This document shows, in pieces, positions 39,408 through 40,871 of a DNA stretch of 54,011 nt. The notes under the pieces were generated by a model. That model made no database searches. It worked only from the letters and a program-made list of their open reading frames with translations, and was not told the DNA's origin. The position numbers were made by a program, and so were the translations under genes. Location: positions 1 through 54,011 of the forward strand of contig JAYKJB010000023.1 of NCBI GenBank assembly GCA_035285325.1, read 5' to 3'. The stretch is from Candidatus Sericytochromatia bacterium (lineage in GTDB: Bacteria > Cyanobacteriota > Sericytochromatia > S15B-MN24 > JAQBPE01). The first letter of the stretch is position 1, and each line of letters begins with the position of its first letter.

Positions 39408-40457
39408 TCAGGGCAGCAGCCGCAGACGGTCTCCCGCCACCAGGCGGCCGATCTCCCACACGTCCACGCCCAGCGCCCGCATGGCACGATGCGTGCCTTC
39501 GGCATCGTCACTGGCCACGGCCAGCAGCAGGCCCCCGCTCGTCTGCGCATCCGCCAAGATCAGCGCCTCGAGCGGCGTGACACCCGGGGCCAGATCGAGG
39601 TGAGGGGTCACGTGGGCCAGGTTGCGCTCGGAGCCTCCCGGCACTTCATCGGCCTGCGCCAGCGCCCGCACGCCCGCGAACAGGGGCACAGCCTCGACAC
39701 TCAGCTCAGCCCCGACGCCAGAGGCGCGACAGATTTCCCACAGGTGCCCGAGCAGGCCGAAGCCCGTCACGTCCGTGCAGGCGTGGACCCCGCGCTTGGC
39801 GACGATGCTGCCGGCCGCCCGATTCAGGCGCATCATGGCGGCGATCGCCGGCTGGGCCTCCTCCGCAGAGATCGCCCCGTGCTTGAGCGCGGTGGTGATG
39901 ATGCCCGTGCCGATCGGCTTGGTCAGCAGCAGGCGATCGCCCGGTTTGCCGCCCGCATTGGTCAAGAACCGCCGCGGATGCACCGAGCCCGTCACCGCCA
40001 TGCCGTACTTGGGCACCGGGTCCTCCACGGTGTGGCCCCCCAGCAGGGCCACCCCGGCTTCCGTCAGTGTATCGAGCCCCCCCTGCAGGATGGCCGAGAC
40101 GACCTCCGGCGGCATGGTGCGAGACGGCAAGGCCAGAATGTTCAGCGCGGTGAGCGGTTGGGCGCCCATGGCGTAGAGGTCGCTCAGGGCGTTGGCCGCG
40201 GCGATCGCCCCGAAGGCGTAGGCGTCGTCCACCATCGGCGTGAAGAAATCGACCGTCTGCACCAGCGCCATGTCAGGCGACAACTGAAAGACGCCTGCGT
40301 CGTCACAGGTCTCGAAGCCCACGAGCACCCGCGGGTCTCGTGGTGTTTGAAGGCGACCCAGCACCTGGGTCAACTGGCCGGGGCCGAGCTTGGACGCTCA
40401 GCCGGCCGTCTGGGAAAGCGCCGTCAAGCGAAACACTTCCTCGCGTGTATGGTCCAT
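39408..40457 (-). CDS. selD: Selenide, water dikinase, selenocysteine-containing (UGA read-through)
   Basis: SelD makes selenophosphate from selenide and ATP, the selenium donor for Sec-tRNA and selenouridine. The long frame seems to begin at TTG 40373, but that lacks the catalytic N-terminus. Reading upstream in the same frame passes one TGA (40398-40400) and continues to ATG 40457, which has AAGGG 5 bases upstream. The added residues (MDHTREEVFRLTALSQTAG, then U, then ASKLGPGQL) match the conserved SelD start, placing the TGA at the catalytic Cys/Sec position (residue 20) and the essential lysine at 23. ATP-site motifs TVDFFTPMVDD and ALSDLYAMG follow. The full length is 349 residues. It is the second gene after a thioesterase, 9 bases apart. 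Confidence 0.93.
40355..40371 (-). promoter_or_regulatory. Candidate bacterial SECIS hairpin in selD mRNA
   Basis: On the minus strand GACCCA and TGGGTC form a 6-bp stem around the loop GGTGC. The loop begins with GGU, as in known bacterial SECIS elements, and lies 32 bases after the UGA at 40398-40400, inside the distance normally tolerated for SelB recruitment. Confidence 0.55.
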
Positions 40458-40466
40458 GACGCCCTT

Positions 40467-40871
40467 TCAGACCTTGGGTTTTTTCAGCATGAGCTTGTTC
40501 ATGAAGCTCTCGGCCTCGATCACGAAGCGCTCGTGAGTGCCCTCGCCAATCTTCTCACGTTCGTCATAGACCACCACCTTGAATTCGAGTCGGCGGCCCT
40601 CCACGCCGACCACCACGGCCTCGGCAGAGACGTTGTGCCCGACCGGACTGGCGGCCAGGTGCTTGAGGGAGAGGCCCATGCCCACCGTGGTGGTGCCGAG
40701 CGGCAGGTAACTCTGCAGGGCATGCACCGCCGCCTGCTCGGCCAGGACCGCCATCGCGGGCGTGGCAAAAATCGGCAAGGAGCCACTGCCCATCGTCACG
40801 GCGGTATTGTCGCCGCCCACCACGGTGGCAGCACTCCCGCGAATTCCCAAGAGATGATCCATCTCGACCAT
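40467..40871 (-). CDS. Thioesterase of the fluoroacetyl-CoA thioesterase-like family
   Basis: A 134-residue hot-dog-fold protein. The family motifs are GSLPIFATPAMAVLAEQAA (with the Thr and Glu used in catalysis), TTVGMGLSLKHLAASPVG (with the His) and EKIGEGTHERFVI. Members hydrolyse acyl-CoA thioesters; most are not specific for fluoroacetyl-CoA, so the substrate is open. The start is ATG 40871, with AAGGAG 8 bases upstream. It is the first gene of a two-gene unit with selD. A link to selenium is not known. Confidence 0.87.
   Translation of the reverse strand: MVEMDHLLGIRGSAATVVGGDNTAVTMGSGSLPIFATPAMAVLAEQAAVHALQSYLPLGTTTVGMGLSLKHLAASPVGHNVSAEAVVVGVEGRRLEFKVVVYDEREKIGEGTHERFVIEAESFMNKLMLKKPKV

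Follow-up and report, generated by a model that had tools for sequence, protein, structure and literature searches.

The catalytic role of the N-terminal cysteine or selenocysteine (Sec) and lysine residues of selenophosphate synthetase (SelD) is well established, and the Sec trait is generally believed to be maintained by formate dehydrogenase or SelD. The Sec type of SelD is itself an old, common and classical selenoprotein. In a set of 223 prokaryote genomes, Sec forms account for approximately 19% of the SelD genes, and their UGA codon is always found at one position (PMC4561486). A survey from 2006 did not find the Sec-decoding trait in any Cyanobacteria and suggested that selenoprotein-containing members had perhaps just not been sequenced (PMC1794560). 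In the portion of a later survey that we draw on, an orphan SelD alone is mentioned, in some Prochlorococcus records (PMC5029168). For the Sericytochromatia, Tanganyikabacteria and Melainabacteria, no report of Sec was found in a search of open-access literature. Here, we analysed a selD gene in a 54,011-nt stretch of DNA from a Candidatus Sericytochromatia bacterium, the whole of which is referred to as the window. Judged from its sequence, the gene almost certainly codes for a Sec-containing selenophosphate synthetase, in which the UGA at 40400-40398 would be decoded as Sec with the help of SelB and a downstream hairpin.

The selD reading frame and its UGA codon

The selD gene (selenophosphate synthetase; selenide, water dikinase) is located on the minus strand at positions 39408-40457 and comprises 349 codons with one UGA read through, as judged by the TIGR00476 family as well as by relatives and solved structures. 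From the ATG at 40457, the minus strand reads MDHTREEVFRLTALSQTAG*ASKLGPG..., that is MDHTREEVFRLTALSQTAG-TGA-ASKLGPGQLTQVLGRLQ..., and continues after the TGA as an open SelD frame until the real stop at 39410-39408. The TGA at 40400-40398 is the sole in-frame stop, and there is no frameshift in the 349 codons. With the N-terminus included, the protein scores 386.9 bits against TIGR00476 (curated cut-off 125 bits), compared to 370.6 bits for the part after the TGA, and the profile match starts at position 1 instead of 13, so that the full-length protein covers positions 1-310 of 311. The start region (40455-40467, minus strand) contains the ATG at 40457, preceded by AAAGGG at 40467-40462. The start codon lies 9 nt past the stop of the upstream gene and its position is kept in relatives, and the N-terminus is kept in relatives from the class as well as in solved SelD structures. 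This agrees with the earlier note on this DNA, in which a conserved SelD start with an ATG at 40457 had been placed upstream of the TGA.

The upstream neighbour of selD (40467-40871, minus strand) codes for an FlK-type (fluoroacetyl-CoA thioesterase-like) hot-dog thioesterase (PF22636, 115.3 bits) and is probably co-transcribed with selD. A neighbour of this type, 79% identical, is also found directly upstream of selD in G001, a genome of the same family as the window's genome (G000). None was found in the examined selD flanks of the other class genomes.

The in-frame TGA (40398-40400, minus strand) corresponds to residue 20 and is part of a UxxK motif, U20-A-S-K23. When the protein is aligned with the solved chains of SelD (3u0o and 2yye), the UGA position matches the Cys of the N-terminal catalytic loop, and Lys23 matches its Lys; the UGA hence replaces exactly the catalytic cysteine, as had been claimed before. 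The same codon is TGA in SelD genes of the class and also in loci named as Chloroflexota, Deltaproteobacteria/Thermodesulfobacteriota and Actinomycetes. Cys homologues exist as well: the codon is TGA in seven class SelD genes, TGC in the G001 gene (L043) and specifies Cys in many others, including most of the Actinomycetes loci found.

Could the UGA simply be a stop codon? The mechanical ORF begins at a TTG (40371-40373, minus strand) and ends at 39408, giving a truncated SelD of 321 aa without the catalytic Sec/Cys or Lys, just as the earlier note had described it. If the UGA were a true stop, this truncated protein would be made from TTG 40373. We consider this very improbable, as conserved SelD sequence and a conserved start are present upstream of the TGA in class genomes and the TGA occurs only at the catalytic codon. 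Moreover, SelA, SelB and tRNA-Sec are retained, although they need the product of an enzyme that would then lack its catalytic residue.

A conserved hairpin downstream of the UGA

The reading as a Sec codon is further supported by a candidate bacterial SECIS (bSECIS) hairpin, TGACCCAG-GTG-CTGGGTCG (40354-40372, minus strand), which has a stem of 8 bp and a loop that begins 33 nt after the UGA. In its RNA form, UGACCCAG-GUG-CUGGGUCG, it has a predicted energy of -10.9 kcal/mol and a GUG loop, which widens to GGUGC when the top pair does not form. A bacterial SECIS prediction had been proposed as a check, and the hairpin lies within the published bSECIS limits in loop, stem length, distance and energy, these being a loop of 3-9 nt with a G in the first two positions, a stem of 4-16 bp, a distance of 16-37 nt from the UGA and an MFE of -7.5 or lower (PMC13188914). 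The earlier note had placed a stem-loop with a GGU loop at 40355-40371, 32 bases downstream of the UGA; the hairpin and its location in the SECIS range proved real, with the stated distance and loop correct to within a single base. In this GC-rich DNA, the same limits are also reached at 154 of the 1350 TGA triplets of the window, and 62 of the 1350 (4.6% of the background) are followed by a hairpin as stable as that of selD. A lone hairpin of this kind in a single sequence is thus weak evidence for a SECIS element. Given the protein sequence and GC content, the probability of the selD hairpin is 0.011 at the fixed place and 0.041 anywhere, and taken singly it is only modestly unusual.

The hairpin evidence gains its strength from conservation, from compensatory changes and from the lack of the hairpin in the Cys relative. 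A stem of 6-9 bp is found at the same place, approximately 33 nt past the UGA, in all seven class UGA genes, and at two of its pairs (GC/UA and UA/AU/GC) both sides have changed in a compensatory manner. The proportion of paired cells falls from 90.5% to at most 54% when the partner columns are slid. Summed over six UGA genes, the stems reach 47 bp compared to a mean of 19.1 (sd 3.9, maximum 37) in a synonymous-codon null of 20,000 draws, a joint figure that treats related sequences as independent and is overstated due to their shared ancestry. We used this position-specific stem test instead of a test of whole-segment folding energy, which gave a weak and inconsistent signal against synonymous codons. 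In the Cys homologue of G001, the stem is reduced to 2 bp and the hairpin model finds no match.

Sec machinery and further UGA genes in the same genome

The window's genome is a draft of 3.83 Mb in 138 contigs, with a completeness of 98.6% and an estimated contamination of 2.96%. It contains one copy of SelA (551.9 bits) on contig C5, with SelB (370.7 bits, including the SelB winged-helix domain) immediately after it, and a tRNA-Sec with the anticodon TCA (UCA) on contig C86 (71.6 bits). The search of the genome for selA, selB and selC that had been suggested earlier therefore found all three alongside selD, which speaks against the refutation by their absence that the earlier note had allowed for. 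In the tRNA-Sec (L012 1501-1596), the eighth pair of the acceptor stem is an A-A mismatch, and the CCA end is not encoded. For formate dehydrogenase, the expected main selenoprotein, the search of this genome gave no match over the cut-off and no internal TGA, and a Sec type was not found. Similarly, the selenouridine synthase YbbB/SelU had no match in this genome and none over the cut-off among the 18 class genomes, and the SeU trait was not detected. As far as tested, selenophosphate in this bacterium therefore seems to serve Sec alone.

A search for other UGA-containing homologues, likewise suggested in the earlier note, identified at least three genes besides selD in the window's genome, a list that represents a minimum as it comes from homology. 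The first codes for an AhpC/TSA-type, PrxQ-like peroxiredoxin (L138 844-1209; C121:8443-8808, minus strand) with a TGA at the peroxidatic Cys, giving TPGU for TPGC. Its hairpin reaches -2.7 kcal/mol in a simple ungapped stem test and is outside the bSECIS energy limit; judged solely by the TPGU position, the gene is a candidate selenoprotein gene. The second codes for a TlpA/ResA-like thioredoxin-fold protein with a UxxC motif, WASWUGGC (L139 806-1147; C66:19805-20146, minus strand), and has a strong hairpin 17 nt past the UGA that falls within the bSECIS limits. The third codes for a SelW-like (SelW/SelT/SelH-like) protein with a CGVU motif (L151 679-885; C62:58178-58384, minus strand), and its hairpin also falls within these limits. 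UGA forms of the SelW-like protein are also present in G004, G005, G007 and G008, and peroxiredoxin-like UGA genes are found in relatives from the class, too. In four peroxiredoxin-like genes of G007, G004, G010 and G001 (L143, L148, L149 and L150, respectively), the UGA is at the first redox position of a UGHC or U[LM]FC motif. All in-frame TGAs found by homology are at redox Cys positions, with one per gene in the three further genes of the window's genome. Routine annotation is likely to call selD truncated, along with a minimum of three further genes of this genome.

A different view would be that selD is a decaying pseudogene, or that its UGA is read as an amino acid other than Sec, owing to an altered genetic code or to readthrough of a non-Sec type. 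In-frame stops are indeed typical of pseudogenes, and animal SPS1 is a known case of non-Sec UGA readthrough (PMC4561486), but the single TGA and zero frameshifts across 349 codons, the presence of a dedicated tRNA-Sec(UCA), SelA and SelB, and the location of the other homology-found in-frame TGAs, all at redox Cys positions, make either version exceedingly improbable.

We thus favour Sec decoding and propose the following model. SelA would convert Ser-tRNA-Sec to Sec-tRNA-Sec using selenophosphate. The hairpin 33 nt downstream of the UGA is predicted to recruit SelB, as in other bacterial selenoprotein mRNAs, and Sec-tRNA-Sec bound to SelB would decode the UGA at 40400-40398 as Sec. The resulting Sec20/Lys23 pair would participate in the synthesis of selenophosphate from selenide and ATP. 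As SelA uses selenophosphate to make Sec-tRNA-Sec, SelD would depend on its own product, a known property of Sec-type SelD enzymes. That Sec is actually inserted and that the enzyme is active, we infer from established biology.

Distribution in the class and comparison with known systems

A stand-alone SelD is encoded in 8 of the 18 class genomes (G000, G001, G004, G005, G007, G008, G009 and G010). The catalytic codon is TGA in seven of these genes, once per gene, and TGC in the eighth, that of G001. SelB was found over the cut-off in seven of the 18 genomes (G000, G001, G004, G005, G007, G008 and G010), each of which has a SelD, and SelA in the same seven. A tRNA-Sec scores over the gathering score in those seven genomes and, weakly, in G009. 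The latter has a SelD with UGA, and SelA and SelB were not found over the cut-off, most simply because the genome is only 64% complete. Among the 18 genomes examined, those without SelD had no SelB or tRNA-Sec above the family cut-offs. SelA was found in seven of 386 sampled genomes of the phylum, all in the host class, and in none of the sampled genomes outside it, which supports the earlier remark on the rarity of selenoproteins in the lineage. A sequencing or assembly error, with TGC or TGT as the true codon, had been named as what could overturn the UGA; in favour of this, the assembly is of draft quality and TGC does occur at this codon in one genome of the same family, but the codon is TGA in seven separately assembled class genomes, that is, in six besides the window's, and in the Chloroflexota, Thermodesulfobacteriota and Actinomycetes loci, and the hairpin is kept in the UGA genes and missing from the TGC gene, so that independent genomes refute this reading, whose probability is negligible.

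The SelD of G001 (L043; C288:55329-56345) has a TGC codon and a broken hairpin, and its genome keeps SelA, SelB, tRNA-Sec and other UGA genes. It is a natural Sec-to-Cys variant and, in the SelD tree, forms a pair with the G000 gene, amid class genes that carry the UGA. Once Sec has been replaced by Cys, selection on the hairpin should be relaxed, and its loss from the Cys gene agrees with this prediction. G001 can be regarded as a natural experiment on the Sec-to-Cys change. The SelD tree also sets the class apart from the fused Cys SelD domains of the phylum, with thin sampling. One might tentatively speculate that the class inherited Sec decoding long ago, with a SelD of the Sec type and with thiol-redox selenoproteins in place of formate dehydrogenase, and that the trait was lost elsewhere in the phylum, including the photosynthetic cyanobacteria, in which no more than a fused SelD-like protein with Cys would have remained; we regard this as possible, though rather unlikely. 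If true, both states would coexist within the class, with G001 as a fresh case of Sec-to-Cys change.

Our results suggest that the novelty of this locus lies in its host, in which a complete Sec trait is present without a detected Sec-type formate dehydrogenase or selenouridine synthase, in a phylum reported to lack Sec decoding. If this phylum equals the Cyanobacteria, as the earlier note and the make-up of the relatives suggest, the host class fills the gap left by the 2006 survey. Its known selenoproteins are SelD and thiol-redox proteins, without a Sec-type formate dehydrogenase having been found. Compared to the class SelD proteins, the SelD domains from other genomes of the phylum (L050-L053) are recognisably related, but are only 35-41% identical, are part of open frames of 748-790 aa, have Cys in place of Sec and belong to a distant branch of the tree. 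The structures 2yye and 2zod represent a SelD of the Aquifex type. In 2yye, SGCAAKVGPGDL aligns with AGUASKLGPGQL of the protein described here, with matching Cys/Sec and Lys residues, whereas the sequence is diverged and, at the catalytic position, the solved chain carries Cys. A close likeness is seen to the Sec-containing bacterial SelD proteins of TIGR00476, with which the protein shares the family score, the UxxK active site, the position of the UGA and a bacterial SECIS located in this part of the coding sequence. The upstream neighbour is an FlK-type thioesterase gene instead of selA or selB, and as a system only the host lineage differs.
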